Position numbers and translations under genes: made by a program. From an uncultured Pelagibacteraceae bacterium (GTDB lineage: Bacteria > Pseudomonadota > Alphaproteobacteria > Pelagibacterales > Pelagibacteraceae), in the NCBI GenBank assembly GCA_902557235.1, contig CACDZR010000002.1, positions 1 through 64,000 of the forward strand: a DNA stretch of 64,000 nucleotides, in the 5' to 3' direction. Position 1 is the stretch's first letter. Each line of letters starts with the position of its first letter. Under the pieces are notes generated by a model, which had not been told where the DNA came from, did not search any database, and was given only the letters and a program-made list of their open reading frames with translations. Below are positions 51,360 through 58,468 of the stretch, one piece after another.

Positions 51360-52492
51360 AAAAAATTTTTATATTAACTGGTGAACCTTCTGGAGATAAA
51401 TTAGCATCTACAGTTGTTTCTAAGCTTCAACAAAATCATTCAAATATAGAATATCTAAGTGTTGGAGGCTCTCATTTAAACAAACTTGGTGTTAAATCAA
51501 TATATGATCTTGAGGAAGTAACTTACATTGGTTTTACAAGTGTAATTTTAAATTTATTTAAAATCAGAAATAAAATAAATGAAACTGTAAAAAAAATAAT
51601 TAAATTTAATCCTGATATTCTATTTAGTGTAGATAGTCCAGATTTCACCCTAAGAGTTGCTGAAAAAGTAAAAAGTATAAATCCTAATATTAAAACAATA
51701 CATTATGTTGCACCACAAGTATGGGTATGGCGAGAAAGTAGGGTTAAGAATTTTAAAAAGTTTTTAGACCATGTTTTATTATTATTCAATTTTGAAAAGA
51801 AATACTTTGATAAAGAAGATATAAAGAACACTTTCGTTGGTCATCCTTTACTTGAAAATAAAGAGAATGTTAAAACAAATTTATCAAATATAATTGATGA
51901 CAATAAAAAAATTATATCTTTATTCGCTGGAAGCCGATCATCTGAAACCAATATTCTTTTACCAATTTTAGTAAACTTTATTAAATTAATGAATGAAAAA
52001 TTTAATCAATATAATTTTGTTTTTCATGCGACCGATCAAAACAAAGATTTAATAAAAAATGAGATTAAAAAAAAAAACTACAACAATGTTGAAGTTATAT
52101 CTGACGAGAATATAAAATTAAAAATACTGTCAAATTCTATATTTGCTGTAGCAAAATCAGGAACTGTTTCTCTTGAAATTTGTAATGCAAAAGTTCCATC
52201 TATTATTATTTATAAAATGAATTTTATTAATTTTTTAGTTGTAAAATTTTTAGTAAAAACAAAATATGCAAATATAATTAATATAATTAACCAAAAAGAA
52301 ATAATTCCAGAATTAATTCAAAAAGAATGTAATTCAAAAGAAATTTTTAGATCTGTAGCATATTTTTTAAAAAACCCCGAGCTTATGAAAAAACAAATTC
52401 TTGACGTGAGCAATACTTTAAATGAAATCAAATCTAAAACTTCTTCATCCTCAGAAGCTTCGGCAGTAGTTTCAAGCTATCTTAGCGCTTAA
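51356..52492 (+). CDS. lpxB: Lipid A disaccharide synthase
   Basis: LpxB joins lipid X and UDP-2,3-diacylglucosamine into the lipid A disaccharide. The 378-residue GT-B type protein has ILTGEPSGDKLAS (about 5-17), the SVDSPDFTLRVAEKVK segment (about 88-103), HYVAPQVWVWRESRVK (about 116-131) and GTVSLEICNAKVPSIIIYK near 272-290. It finishes the bamA-skp-fabZ-lpx cluster. Its last 21 bp overlap the convergent gltX gene. Confidence 0.96.
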   Translation: MKKIFILTGEPSGDKLASTVVSKLQQNHSNIEYLSVGGSHLNKLGVKSIYDLEEVTYIGFTSVILNLFKIRNKINETVKKIIKFNPDILFSVDSPDFTLRVAEKVKSINPNIKTIHYVAPQVWVWRESRVKNFKKFLDHVLLLFNFEKKYFDKEDIKNTFVGHPLLENKENVKTNLSNIIDDNKKIISLFAGSRSSETNILLPILVNFIKLMNEKFNQYNFVFHATDQNKDLIKNEIKKKNYNNVEVISDENIKLKILSNSIFAVAKSGTVSLEICNAKVPSIIIYKMNFINFLVVKFLVKTKYANIINIINQKEIIPELIQKECNSKEIFRSVAYFLKNPELMKKQILDVSNTLNEIKSKTSSSSEASAVVSSYLSA

Positions 52493-53869
52493 TCTTTTCT
52501 GAACTTCTTCTTTTCCTAATGATAAAATAATATCATATATACCAGGTCCAAACTTTGAACCAGTTAGTACAATCCTTAGTGGTTGTCCAACACCTTTAAA
52601 ATTTGTGCCATGCGATTTTATAAGCTCGTTTACTATTGGTTCTAAAATTTCTCTAGAGGGCAGGTCTATTTTTTCAAACTGACCCTTAAAATCAGAAATT
52701 ACTTTTCTTGCTTTGTTGTCAATTAATTTAAGATCATCCTTATTGAAATCGACCTCATCTTTTAAAATATATTGACCATTATTAAATATATCCTCCAAAG
52801 TTTTTGCTTTATTTTTTAGGAAGGTAAGAGATTTTTTAATCTTATCTTTTTTATCTGATTGAATTTCACTTTTATATAATTTGCAATATTCAGTTAATTG
52901 GTTGAATAAATCATCCTCATCAATATTCTTAATATAGTGTTCATTCATTGATAAAATTCTACTCATATCAAGTTTAGAGGGAGATTTACCGATACCTTCT
53001 AAATTAAAAAATTTTATACTTTCCTCTAATGTGAATATTTCTTTATCTTTGTAAGACCAGCCTAGTCTTAAAAGGTAGTTTCGAAGAGCATCTGGCATGA
53101 TACCTATTTTGGAATAATCATCTAATGTAGAAGCTTGATCTCGCTTTGATAGTTTCTTTCCCTCTATTGTATGTATCAATGGTATGTGAGCAAATGAGGG
53201 TAAATCCCATTTCATGGCTTGATAAATTTGTATTTGTTTGAAGGTGTTTATTTTATGATCGTCACCTCTAATAATATGTGTCATATTCATTTGGTGATCG
53301 TCTACGGATGCAGATAAATTATATGTAGGGGTCCCGTCATTTCTTAAGATAATAAAATCTTCGATTGTATTATTATCAATCTCAACATCACCTTGAACCA
53401 AATCTTTCAAAATTGATGTCCCATCAATCTTACTTTTAAATCTTATGACAGGTTTAATATCTTTTGGAGCATCAGATTCTTTTTTATCTCTCCATTTTCT
53501 ATCATAAATATAAGGAATCTTTTTTTGTCTAGCTCTTTTTTTTTGTTCTTCTATTTCTTCACTTGAACAATAACATTTATATGCATGACCATTTTTAAGA
53601 AGTTCATTTGCAACTTTAATGTGGTTGTTTATCTTTTCTGATTGAATATATTCATCTCCATCGTAGTTGATACCAATCCATTTAAGAGATTGTATTATTT
53701 GATCTTTATATTCATCTTTAGATCTTTCTTTATCTGTATCTTCCACCCTCAAATAAAATTTACCATTGTGATTTTTAGAGTATAACCAATTAAATAAAGC
53801 CGTTCTAACACCACCAATATGTAATGCACCAGTAGGCGAGGGAGCAAATCTAGTTGCTACTTTTTTCAT
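52472..53869 (-). CDS. gltX: Glutamyl-tRNA synthetase
   Basis: GltX charges tRNA-Glu. The 465-residue class I synthetase has the HIGH-type motif in FAPSPTGALHIGGVRTALF (about 8-26), the KMSKS-type GKKLSKRD (about 243-250) and an alpha-helical anticodon domain. Length is typical for bacteria. It is on the minus strand downstream of lexA, with 22 bp between, and its 3' end overlaps lpxB by 21 bp in a tail-to-tail arrangement. Confidence 0.97.
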   Translation of the reverse strand: MKKVATRFAPSPTGALHIGGVRTALFNWLYSKNHNGKFYLRVEDTDKERSKDEYKDQIIQSLKWIGINYDGDEYIQSEKINNHIKVANELLKNGHAYKCYCSSEEIEEQKKRARQKKIPYIYDRKWRDKKESDAPKDIKPVIRFKSKIDGTSILKDLVQGDVEIDNNTIEDFIILRNDGTPTYNLSASVDDHQMNMTHIIRGDDHKINTFKQIQIYQAMKWDLPSFAHIPLIHTIEGKKLSKRDQASTLDDYSKIGIMPDALRNYLLRLGWSYKDKEIFTLEESIKFFNLEGIGKSPSKLDMSRILSMNEHYIKNIDEDDLFNQLTEYCKLYKSEIQSDKKDKIKKSLTFLKNKAKTLEDIFNNGQYILKDEVDFNKDDLKLIDNKARKVISDFKGQFEKIDLPSREILEPIVNELIKSHGTNFKGVGQPLRIVLTGSKFGPGIYDIILSLGKEEVQKRLSAKIA

Positions 53870-53891: not shown

Positions 53892-54569
53892 TTAGAAGTT
53901 TCTATATAAAGATACTAATACGCCCTGAACTTTAACTCTATCAGGTCCAAATATTTTAGTTTCGTAATTTTTGTTGGCACTTTCTAAAGCAACAACTTTA
54001 CCTTTTTTTCTAATTCTTTTTAACATTGCTTCATGCTCATCAATTAGAGCAACAACAATTTTTCCATTATCAGCTGTATCTGTTCTTTTAATAATTACTG
54101 TATCACCCTCATGAATTCCAGCTTCAATCATCGAGTCCCCTTGAACTTTTAAACCAAAATAGTCCCCATTTTTCTCCAAATTACTTGGCAAAGGTATTCT
54201 TGAAACCTCATTTTGAATAGCTTCAACAGGTGTTCCAGCAGCGATTTTTCCTAAAACTGGCACTTCAGCATCATCTGATAATAAATTTTCCTCATCTAAA
54301 CCACCTTTAATAACACTTGGTGAAAAACTGTTATAAATGTCATTTGCAGAGGCCGTTTCTGGCAATTTGATTACTTCTAATGCTCTTGCTTTATGAGCAA
54401 GTCTTTTAATAAAACCTCTTTCTTCTAAAGCACTTATAAGTCTATGAATTCCAGACTTCGATTTAAGGTTTAATGAAGCTTTCATTTCTTCATAAGATGG
54501 AGATACACCAGAGCTCCTCAACTTCTTGTTGATAAATAAAAGCAGGTTTTTTTGTTTTTTTGTTAGCAT
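53892..54569 (-). CDS. lexA: SOS response repressor LexA
   Basis: LexA represses DNA-damage genes and is inactivated by RecA-stimulated self-cleavage. The 225-residue protein has an N-terminal winged helix (about 1-65), the cleavage site Ala111-Gly112, Ser146 in VQGDSMIEAG and Lys184 in EAMLKRI, so the serine-lysine dyad is intact; the 34-residue Gly-Ser spacing equals that of E. coli. Two tandem SOS boxes lie just upstream, so it is autoregulated. It is preceded by trpC and followed by gltX on the same strand. Confidence 0.97.
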   Translation of the reverse strand: MLTKKQKNLLLFINKKLRSSGVSPSYEEMKASLNLKSKSGIHRLISALEERGFIKRLAHKARALEVIKLPETASANDIYNSFSPSVIKGGLDEENLLSDDAEVPVLGKIAAGTPVEAIQNEVSRIPLPSNLEKNGDYFGLKVQGDSMIEAGIHEGDTVIIKRTDTADNGKIVVALIDEHEAMLKRIRKKGKVVALESANKNYETKIFGPDRVKVQGVLVSLYRNF

Positions 54570-54571
54570 AA

Positions 54572-54586
54572 GAACAAATATCGTAC
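54572..54586. promoter_or_regulatory. Second, imperfect SOS box upstream of lexA
   Basis: GAAC-N7-GTAC at 54572-54586 resembles the alphaproteobacterial LexA site GAAC-N7-GAAC with one mismatch. It starts 22 bp from the perfect box, about two helical turns, and only 3 bp before the lexA ATG, so bound LexA would lie on the same DNA face and block expression. Confidence 0.5.
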
Positions 54587-54593
54587 AAAAACT

Positions 54594-54608
54594 GTTCTAC
54601 AAAAGTTC
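54594..54608. promoter_or_regulatory. SOS box (LexA operator) upstream of lexA
   Basis: GTTC-TACAAAA-GTTC is an exact direct repeat GTTC-N7-GTTC, the known alphaproteobacterial LexA operator. It lies 25 bp upstream of the lexA start and indicates autoregulation of lexA. The exact promoter elements cannot be fixed, but the site falls where they would lie. Confidence 0.8.
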
Positions 54609-54658
54609 TTTTCAATTCACAATAGTAAAAAAAGTCAATAAAATAGGGAGCTATTTAA

Positions 54659-55450
54659 CTAAAGAACTGAGAAAATAGAATTATTTTCCAAATTTTTCAA
54701 AAGTGATTCACCAATTAGAAAAGTTTTAATAGATGTTTTATTTGAGAGCTCTAATAGTTCATCTTTAGTTTTAATTCCACTTTCAGAAATTAATGGACCT
54801 TTATGATTAACTAAAACATCATGAATATCAAAAGTTGTATTTATATCGGTTTTAAGTGTCTTTAAGTTCCTATTATTGATGCCAATTAATGCATCTTCAA
54901 ATTTTAAAGCTTGTTTTGCCTCCTCAACTGTATGTACCTCAACTATTACAGACATATTTAATTCTAATGCTTCCTCATATAACTCATTAGCAATGCTTTC
55001 ATTTACACCAGCTAATATAATCAATATTGCATCTGCTCCGTGACTTTTTGCTAATGGAATTTGAAATTTATCCACAAAAAAGTCCTTACAAAGAATTGGT
55101 AAATTAACATTTTGTTTGATTTTATTTATATGTGTTAAATTTCCTAAAAAAAAATTTTCTTCAGTCAAAACTGATAAACAAGTAGCTTTATTGTCATTAT
55201 ATATATTAGCTATTTTAACAGGGTCATAATCATTTATGATTACACCTGCAGAAGGACTAGCTTTTTTGATCTCAGCAATAATTGAAAATTTGTTTTCCTT
55301 AATATTTTTTTTAATTTTTTCTTTAAAATTAACAAAAGTTTTATTTTTTTCTATTAATTCATTTAATGTGTCTATTGAAAAATTTTTTTTAGAATTTTCA
55401 ATTTTTTCTATTTTTTTTTTAATAATCTTTTCGAGTATATTTTCAGACAT
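54659..55450 (-). CDS. trpC: Indole-3-glycerol phosphate synthase
   Basis: TrpC closes the indole ring from carboxyphenylaminodeoxyribulose phosphate. The 263-residue TIM barrel has IAEIKKASPSAGVI (about 57-70) and the loops around CKDFFVDKFQI (about 120-130), LIGINNRNLKTLKTD (about 187-201) and SESGIKTKDEL (about 218-228). It is a single-function protein, not fused to TrpF as in E. coli. It overlaps trpD by 8 bp. An 89-bp gap with the SOS boxes separates it from lexA. Confidence 0.96.
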   Translation of the reverse strand: MSENILEKIIKKKIEKIENSKKNFSIDTLNELIEKNKTFVNFKEKIKKNIKENKFSIIAEIKKASPSAGVIINDYDPVKIANIYNDNKATCLSVLTEENFFLGNLTHINKIKQNVNLPILCKDFFVDKFQIPLAKSHGADAILIILAGVNESIANELYEEALELNMSVIVEVHTVEEAKQALKFEDALIGINNRNLKTLKTDINTTFDIHDVLVNHKGPLISESGIKTKDELLELSNKTSIKTFLIGESLLKNLENNSIFSVL

Positions 55451-56440: not shown

Positions 56441-57010
56441 TTAAATTTTAATAAAATTTTTTAAAATTTTAATACCTAATTTAGTTTTAATACTTTCAGG
56501 GTGAAATTGCACTCCATGAACATTATATTTTTTATGTTGAACACCCATAATTAAACCATCTTTACTCTCAGCCGTGATTTCAAGGTGTTTTGATAGTGAT
56601 TTTTTATCAATAATTAAGCTGTGATAGCGTGTTGCTTCAAATGATTTTGGAAGATTTTTTAAAATTCCCAGTTTTTTTGAGATTATTTTACTTGTTTTAC
56701 CATGCATTAGTCTTTTAGCTTGAATAATTTTAGAACCAAATACTTGTCCTATTATTTGATGCCCAAGACAAACTCCAAGTATTGGGATTTTTTTATATAA
56801 AGATTTTACTATCTTTAAACAATTACCTGATTGATTAGGATTACCTGGACCTGGTGAGATTACAATCTTATTATATCTTTTTTTTAATATTTGATTAGAT
56901 GTAATCTGATCATTTCTTATAACATCTACCTTCACTTTCAATGATGATAAGTAATGATAAAGATTGAAAGTAAAACTATCGTAATTATCTATAAGAATTA
57001 TTTTTTTCAT
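56441..57010 (-). CDS. trpG: Anthranilate synthase glutamine amidotransferase subunit
   Basis: TrpG supplies ammonia from glutamine to TrpE. The 189-residue class I amidotransferase has DNYDSFTFNLYHY (about 8-20), the nucleophile Cys81 in LGVCLGHQ and the His-Glu pair in GVQFHPESIKT. Members of this family can also act with PabB in folate synthesis. It overlaps the trpE 3' part by 4 bp (ATGA) and lies before trpD. Confidence 0.96.
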   Translation of the reverse strand: MKKIILIDNYDSFTFNLYHYLSSLKVKVDVIRNDQITSNQILKKRYNKIVISPGPGNPNQSGNCLKIVKSLYKKIPILGVCLGHQIIGQVFGSKIIQAKRLMHGKTSKIISKKLGILKNLPKSFEATRYHSLIIDKKSLSKHLEITAESKDGLIMGVQHKKYNVHGVQFHPESIKTKLGIKILKNFIKI

Positions 57011-57942
57011 TTTAAAGCATTAATCAAAGCTTTCGCTTTATTTACAGTTTCTTCATACTCTTTTAAAGGTTTGCTATCAGCAACAATTCCAGCACCAGCT
57101 TGAACATAGAATTTATCTTTTTTAGCTACAGCTGTTCTTAAAGCTATACAAGTATCAAATTCACCATTTGCTGAAAAATAGCCAATACCACCAGCGTAAA
57201 CTTTTCTCTTAGTTGTCTCTAATTCATCAATTATTTCCATAGCTCTAATTTTTGGTGCGCCAGAAACAGTTCCTGCAGGAAAACCAGCTAGAAGTGATTT
57301 AAATTTTGAAAACTTCTTATCATATACACCGATAACATTAGATACTATGTGCATTACGTGAGAATACTTTTCAATAATAAAGCTCTCTGTTACTTTTACA
57401 GTATTAATTTTTGAAACTTTACCAGCATCATTTCTGCCTAAATCCAATAACATTAAATGCTCTGAAAGCTCCTTTTTATCTTGAAGAAGATCTTTTTCAT
57501 AAAAACGATCCTCGCTCAATGTTTTACCTCTAGGTCTTGTTCCAGCGATTGGTCTTACAGTGATTTTGTTATCCCTTAGTCTCACCAGTATTTCTGGGCT
57601 AGCACCAATAATTTGAAAATCATTGAAATTGAAAAAAAACATAAAAGGTGAAGGGTTAGTCACTCTAAGTTTTTTATAAATATCAATTGGTTTTTTTGTT
57701 AGCTTAGCTTCAAATCTTTGACTTAAAACTACCTGAAATATATCTCCTAATTTAATATATTCTTTTGCTTTATTGACCATTTGCAAAAATCTATTTTTAG
57801 AAGTGTTTGATTTAACTTTAATATTATTTGATTTTAATTGAGTTCTATTATCTATATTTTTAATTGATGATTGAATAAGCAATCTAAAAAGATCTGATTT
57901 TACCTCATCATATTTTTTTTGATAATCTATAATTTTTTTCAT
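57007..57942 (-). CDS. trpE: Anthranilate synthase component I, C-terminal part (split trpE)
   Basis: This frame encodes the chorismate-binding catalytic part of TrpE (311 codons from the ATG at 57942): RPIAGTRPRGKT (about 130-141), DLGRNDAGKVSKI (about 168-180), PAGTVSGAPKIRAMEIIDELE (about 223-243) and QAGAGIVADSKP near the end. The N-terminal part is in a different frame (57908-58468). The ATG has no well-spaced ribosome site, so separate translation is poorly supported. Removing one A from the A7 run near 57934-57940 would fuse both into about 486 residues, normal TrpE length. Confidence 0.85.
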   Translation of the reverse strand: MKKIIDYQKKYDEVKSDLFRLLIQSSIKNIDNRTQLKSNNIKVKSNTSKNRFLQMVNKAKEYIKLGDIFQVVLSQRFEAKLTKKPIDIYKKLRVTNPSPFMFFFNFNDFQIIGASPEILVRLRDNKITVRPIAGTRPRGKTLSEDRFYEKDLLQDKKELSEHLMLLDLGRNDAGKVSKINTVKVTESFIIEKYSHVMHIVSNVIGVYDKKFSKFKSLLAGFPAGTVSGAPKIRAMEIIDELETTKRKVYAGGIGYFSANGEFDTCIALRTAVAKKDKFYVQAGAGIVADSKPLKEYEETVNKAKALINALK

Positions 57943-58468
57943 CCTTATAGATATTTCTTATATAGAAAATTTCTTTTTTTAAATTATCATGAATTATAAG
58001 TATTCTTGGTCTTAGAAGTCTTACATCAGGTATACTAAGATCATCCTTACAATTGTTCGGAATTTTCTCGATATATCTTATAGAGTCATAAGAAAAATAT
58101 CCCGAAATTAAAGAACAAATTTTTGGTAAACTTTTAGGTGTTTCAAATTTAAATTCCTCAATAATTTTTTCGATTAAATTTTCTGGTTTATCTTTAAGTT
58201 TGACTTTTTTTTTATTTTGAATCAAATAAGAATTATTATTCTTAAATTCCCATATCTTATCAGGATTTTTTCCAAATATAGTGTATCTTCCTTTGATTTT
58301 ACCTTTTTCTACTGACTCAAATATAAAGCTATTTTTTTCACTTAAAAAATTATCTATTAAATTCGAGATCTCTTCATCACCTTTGATTTTTTTTGAAGTA
58401 TATATAATCTGATTTTTATTGCTTCTATGTCGAAACTTAAAATCTTTGAAGCTTCGATTTATGTTCAT
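57908..58468 (-). CDS. trpE: Anthranilate synthase component I, N-terminal part (split trpE)
   Basis: This frame encodes the N-terminal TrpE domain (186 codons): SFIFESVEKGKIKGRYTIFG (about 48-67) is the region that binds feedback tryptophan around the conserved Ser, followed by the Anth_synt_I_N strands. After residue 178 (DEK) the frame runs into eight unrelated codons and a stop. Homology continues in the C-terminal frame. The start overlaps the ppiD stop as ATGA, suggesting coupled translation. Either a 1-base insertion in an A run or a real frameshift or slippage is present. Confidence 0.85.
   Translation of the reverse strand: MNINRSFKDFKFRHRSNKNQIIYTSKKIKGDEEISNLIDNFLSEKNSFIFESVEKGKIKGRYTIFGKNPDKIWEFKNNNSYLIQNKKKVKLKDKPENLIEKIIEEFKFETPKSLPKICSLISGYFSYDSIRYIEKIPNNCKDDLSIPDVRLLRPRILIIHDNLKKEIFYIRNIYKDEKNYRLSKKI

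Follow-up and report, generated by a model that had tools for sequence, protein, structure and literature searches.

Twin LexA-type boxes before lexA and a small predicted LexA regulon in Pelagibacteraceae

The lexA locus and its upstream gap

The window, a stretch of 64,000 nucleotides from an uncultured Pelagibacteraceae bacterium (GCA_902557235.1, contig CACDZR010000002.1), encodes lexA on its minus strand (53892-54569). The 225-aa product consists of a LexA DNA-binding domain and an S24 peptidase domain, matches both PF01726 and PF00717, the domains of a LexA repressor, above curated cut-offs, and reaches 165.9 bits against TIGR00498 in a profile search (cut-off 110.95). Residues A111-G112, S146 and K184 are unchanged across a six-sequence alignment (A1); with roles taken over from E. 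coli LexA, we assume these to be the Ala-Gly cleavage site and the Ser-Lys dyad. LexA is 96-100% identical on the best 80 related contigs. A Glx-type class I tRNA synthetase gene (52472-53869) lies downstream of lexA, and trpC (54659-55450, minus strand; PF00218) adjoins it on the upstream side across an 89-nt gap. This neighbour is constant, as trpC lies directly upstream of lexA in 80/80 loci with gaps of 85-89 nt, and in the accessible part of a study of Sargasso Sea contigs with trp genes, lexA, if there, is always placed after trpC (PMC2395257). On the minus strand of the window, trpE (57007-58468) is split into two overlapping open reading frames (ORFs; 57908-58468 and 57007-57942), one matching the N-terminal and the other the C-terminal portion of trpE models, as a frameshift or a misassembly might produce.

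The trpC-lexA gap houses two LexA-type boxes. Box 1 (54594-54608, minus strand) is a predicted LexA operator of the form GAAC-N7-GAAC, reading GAACTTTTGTAGAAC on the gene strand and GTTC-N7-GTTC on the other, and its end lies 24 nt 5' of the lexA ATG. Box 2 (54572-54586, minus strand) is a predicted recA-type LexA operator that reads GTACGATATTTGTTC on the gene strand and GAACAAATATCGTAC, that is, GAAC-N7-GTAC, on the other, and ends only 2 nt 5' of the ATG. Both strings lie exactly where the preliminary description had placed them, and the start positions bear out the 22-bp offset, about two helical turns, that it had reported. Its count of one mismatch in box 2 is right with respect to GAAC-N7-GAAC, a comparison in which boxes 1 and 2, as direct repeats, face opposite ways; it does not hold as a sign of a decayed copy, since GTAC is a conserved recA-type form (see below).

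Column conservation reveals a putative -10-like hexamer, TATTGT (54619-54624, minus strand), upstream of box 1, which points to a promoter belonging to lexA itself. This hexamer was not listed by a consensus promoter scan, which gave no rightly placed match in the trpC-lexA gap, and a terminator scan found none between the two genes. Read-through from trp into lexA is possible. If lexA were driven mainly by such read-through, LexA on the twin boxes would act as a roadblock and not as a promoter repressor, a scheme that would fit the invariable trpC neighbour, both in the 80 loci and in the Sargasso Sea contigs, and the gap lacking a terminator-like site or a rightly placed promoter match. However, the conserved TATTGT just upstream of box 1 would provide a promoter of its own at operator distance, and trp-dependent supply would presumably couple the repressor to amino-acid state, so that we regard this scheme as unlikely.

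Conservation of the boxes and the GTAC form at recA

Within the window's family, every one of the 108 lexA upstreams that could be read keeps both boxes, at a spacing of 22 bp in 100 and 21 bp in 8. These 108 derive from 110 loci, after leaving out one at a contig end without a lexA start (L022) and one from the sister family that was scored apart (L038); they comprise 71 distinct sequences over the last 60 nt and include five identical pairs, two of which are probably one genome represented twice. Among the 76 distinct ungapped upstreams, all 16 half-site columns are invariant, three columns between the boxes fall to about 0.5, and the mean share of the commonest base is 0.70 over positions -95 to -61. 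Box 1 thus has the alphaproteobacterial GTTC-N7-GTTC before lexA in 108/108 upstreams. Box 2 lacks GTTC (or GAAC) in one half, where GTAC replaces it, and because this GTAC is likewise invariant in 108/108, box 2 was classed as a recA-type variant. The inner half-sites of the two boxes also form an overlapping central GAAC-N7-GTAC (54583-54597, minus strand); it was set aside as a third operator and is probably incidental, because the eight sequences with 21-bp spacing (8/108) do not have it.

The same asymmetric form marks recA. It was present as GAACAAAATGTGTAC in all 22 family genomes examined, out of 27 carrying recA, and, counting one variant, in 20/20 readable sister-family genomes (G052 and G041 were left out for short upstreams). 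In the family the recA box starts 64-66 nt before the ATG, clear of the start codon, apart from one at 44 nt (L228) that follows from an ORF call starting further upstream. Across the class, GAAC-N7-GTAC occurred in 30 of 70 sampled recA upstreams, with AAA directly after GAAC in 27 of the 30; the same half-sites at spacers of 3-6 and 8-13 gave 0-2 sites each (n = 70), and swapped half-sites at N7 gave none in 70. The 70 upstreams were drawn from 139 genomes with a recA match and comprise 30 top-scoring loci and 40 chosen manually, with some preference for small genomes; one (G143) belongs to the window's own family. The form was not found in print by text search and may exist in subscription papers. 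We also observed an additional GAAC-N7-GAAC about 115-121 nt before the recA ATG in 19 of the 20 readable sister-family genomes (L122-L141).

Presence of the recA box follows presence of lexA. With lexA-positive genomes defined by a LexA match over the family cut-off, any recA box was found in 42/48 lexA-positive versus 0/22 lexA-negative genomes, and the GTAC type in 30/48 versus 0/22; the Fisher P values (4e-13 and 1.6e-7, respectively) are nominal because the genomes are related. The lexA-negative set includes 12 genomes without a LexA match and 10 with a sub-cut-off match, one of which (G134) spans nearly the whole profile. Six of the 48 lexA-positive genomes had no recA box, among them one whose lexA match contains an internal stop (G085) and one with a partial match (G121). 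This natural pattern of lexA loss, with no box in lexA-negative genomes, links the GTAC type with LexA. Across the wider class sample, LexA over the family cut-off was absent from 29 of 144 genomes, and the 22 lexA-negative genomes above are those among the 29 whose recA upstream was inspected. At SAR11 recA, GTAC adjoins a -10-like TACATT, so the GTAC half may represent a trade-off between operator and promoter function; a comparable promoter constraint is not visible at lexA box 2. Judged from these sequence comparisons, box 2 is a conserved recA-type form and not a decayed copy.

Because the ribosome-binding region overlaps box 2, translation could account for some of this box's conservation, and box 1 might be the only LexA operator, with box 2 kept for translation initiation or as part of an RNA hairpin at the start codon. 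This explanation gains from the position of box 2, 2 nt from the ATG, from the potential of the inner GAACA and the outer TGUUC to pair in the mRNA, and from the N7 of box 2, which is conserved nearly as well as its half-sites among close relatives. Four results count against it: the predicted RNA folding does not exceed that of shuffled sequences (z = -0.08 and 0.09), giving no signal for a hairpin around the start of lexA; both half-sites, GTAC and GTTC, are unchanged even in the 9/108 upstreams in which the N7 varies; GAAC-AAA-N4-GTAC also marks recA, away from the start codon; and the GTAC form at recA tracks lexA presence. We therefore consider it improbable that box 1 is the only LexA operator.

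A second box at lexA is also found elsewhere in the class. A relaxed second box, ending in GTTC and starting 20-27 bp on, was counted by hand in 24 of 43 further lexA upstreams from the class, these being the loci with a first box in the scanned stretch among 50 fetched, so twin architecture appears widespread. The left half of the 24 second boxes was GTTT in 18, GTTG in 4, GTTC in 1 and GTAC in 1, and a sister genus of the same family (L334) has GTTT at 22 bp; in contrast, Pelagibacter combines a fixed GTAC with a tight 21-22-bp spacing. A single exact box was seen in each of the 17 lexA upstreams fetched from the sister family, and likewise in L038.

Motif counts and other predicted targets

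The bare motif is not significant, because about one match is expected per window and the own-genome count lies below that of the reversed control. In shuffles of the window's composition, exact GTTC-N7-GTTC occurred 0.90 times on average and at least once in 58/100; the genome itself has 12 exact copies, compared with 18 for the reversed control, and neither it nor most of 10 genomes showed enrichment over that control. Three of the 12 copies are intergenic (before lexA, umuD and nrdA), and the other nine, eight within ORFs and one at an ORF start, were put down to chance because of where they lie. Despite these chance-level counts, position and conservation mark the boxes as genuine. The most recurrent 15-mers across the 10 genomes were those of umuD (10 genomes) and of lexA and nrdA (9-10), the latter two clusters overlapping by one mismatch, and among GTAC-type 15-mers those of recA (10) and lexA box 2 (8). 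The largest recurrences among 200 column shuffles were 8 (once) and 6, so that the box 15-mers are at or above the maximum. The remaining recurrent 15-mers (at most 8 genomes) were set aside, since they differ by one mismatch from the lexA or nrdA boxes or represent a site internal to nrdB (6). That the boxes themselves are chance matches in an AT-rich genome, as the roughly one match expected per window and the genome-wide count would allow, is refuted by their conservation in 108/108 upstreams and by orthologous sites at recA, umuD and nrdA, and the probability we leave to it is close to nil.

Predicted operators were found at recA, umuD and nrdA, and not at uvrA, uvrB or uvrC. The umuD box, GAACAAAAYAAGAAC or a near variant, lies 0-9 nt before the ATG in 17/17 fetched loci, a number smaller than that of the genomes listed with umuD; in two of the 17 (G029 and G033) the reading frame stays open as far as a further ATG that precedes the box. 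The nrdA box, GTTCTATAAATGTTC or a near variant, starts 93-111 nt upstream in 30/30. Gene identities were assigned by profile for umuD (NF007621, 142.8 bits; cut-off 110), nrdA (NF006577, 732; cut-off 620) and nrdB (NF007186, 562.9; cut-off 237); umuC scored above the cut-off for PF00817 and, at 403.5, below the 431 of NF002955. In the window's own genome the nrdA box lies between two divergent genes, nrdA and one of the phosphoglucomutase/phosphomannomutase type (by Pfam), and the latter could therefore be a target too. No exact box was found before uvrA (0/10 family and 0/20 sister-family genomes), one family upstream (L179) having a one-mismatch site, nor before uvrB (0/19) or uvrC (0/19, of which 18 are meaningful because L426 is N-terminally truncated; L409 was left out for its short upstream). 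A single Y-family polymerase, umuC, was found in 17/21 genomes and none in the other four, and nothing therefore points to imuB. The expectation of further boxes before DNA-repair genes in the preliminary description was accordingly upheld for recA and umuD, with nrdA in addition, and found no support for uvrA or imuB.

The predicted regulon found here (lexA, recA, umuDC and nrdA) appears very small, and it includes nrdA. Our literature search, in which subscription papers were thinly covered, found no description of a SAR11 LexA regulon. SAR11, among the most abundant marine bacteria, thereby gains a concrete predicted LexA regulon, and its very small genomes appear to retain a compact emergency-repair switch. 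The initial proposal that a streamlined genome has LexA-type boxes ahead of an authentic lexA is supported by the lexA domains and by box conservation.

Predicted autoregulation and phage infection

In all probability, the two boxes form a twin operator that lets LexA repress lexA itself in SAR11. The putative transcription start would lie at box 1 or shortly before it; a LexA dimer would occupy this box and a second dimer box 2, two helical turns downstream, where it would touch the start codon. LexA cleaves itself when triggered by RecA filaments on single-stranded DNA, as is established for the family, and this cleavage would free lexA, recA, umuDC and nrdA together. Box 2 would represent the GAAC-AAA-N4-GTAC form that is kept at recA in many Alphaproteobacteria. 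Ordinary LexA autoregulation is well supported by these sequence patterns, to which SAR11 would add the recA-type box 2, the very small regulon found and the inclusion of nrdA. The apparent mismatch being a conserved, predicted operator of the recA type, the recA site of many Alphaproteobacteria would escape scans for GTTC-N7-GTTC only.

The E. coli LexA box is CTGT-N8-ACAG, and the E. coli lexA operators thus differ in sequence from those of SAR11. An evolutionary tie between cyanobacterial and alphaproteobacterial LexA boxes was reportedly drawn by Mazon and colleagues in 2004. The accessible text on E. coli lexA describes two LexA operators in its promoter (PMC9210283), an arrangement with negative feedback that is predicted here for SAR11. 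Operators of the form GTTC-N7-GTTC or GAAC-N7-GAAC are described, in the portions available, for Caulobacter (PMC12700426) and for the class (PMC3091678); SAR11 box 1, located before lexA, and the umuD and nrdA boxes match this form exactly, whereas in box 2 and at recA one of the two half-sites is GTAC. The cyanobacterial operator, given as RGTACNNNDGTWCB in the same portion of the latter source (PMC3091678), similarly sets a GTAC half-site beside a GTTC-like half-site, but with a spacer of 4 instead of the 7 in SAR11.

Published expression data can be read alongside the predicted regulon. In Pelagibacter HTCC1062 infected with phage HTVC027P, the accessible part of the study reports increased expression of recA, lexA, umuD and umuC, and of nrdA (3.12-8.87-fold) and nrdB (2.53-5.83-fold), and its authors tied nrd induction to phage DNA synthesis (PMC12753301). 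Three excinuclease genes, dnaE, dnaN, dnaG and many others were also raised (PMC12753301); co-induction by phage is therefore not specific, since it extends to box-less excinuclease genes and many others. The boxes were read in family sequences, among which HTCC1062 was not identified. The conserved box before nrdA suggests that its induction by phage is part of the same LexA derepression, and the reported induction of nrdAB with recA, lexA and umuDC can be read as a possible single SOS derepression.

Taken jointly, these observations lead us to a tentative proposal, plausible though slightly short of an even chance, in which alphaproteobacterial LexA would have two operator classes, the direct repeat GAAC-N7-GAAC and the asymmetric GAAC-AAA-N4-GTAC. 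The latter would persist before recA in a large part of the class and would have become fixed in Pelagibacter as the start-proximal lexA operator, setting a separate affinity for the feedback genes, and a lytic pelagiphage without its own nrdAB would gain nucleotides by triggering the host SOS response, nrdA being in the regulon. We note that most nrdA upstreams (L005 1448-1605, L182-L211) also carry a ACAACATATAGTTGT-like inverted repeat downstream of the LexA box; it resembles what we take to be an NrdR box, and given its place beside the LexA box, nrdA may be under dual control.
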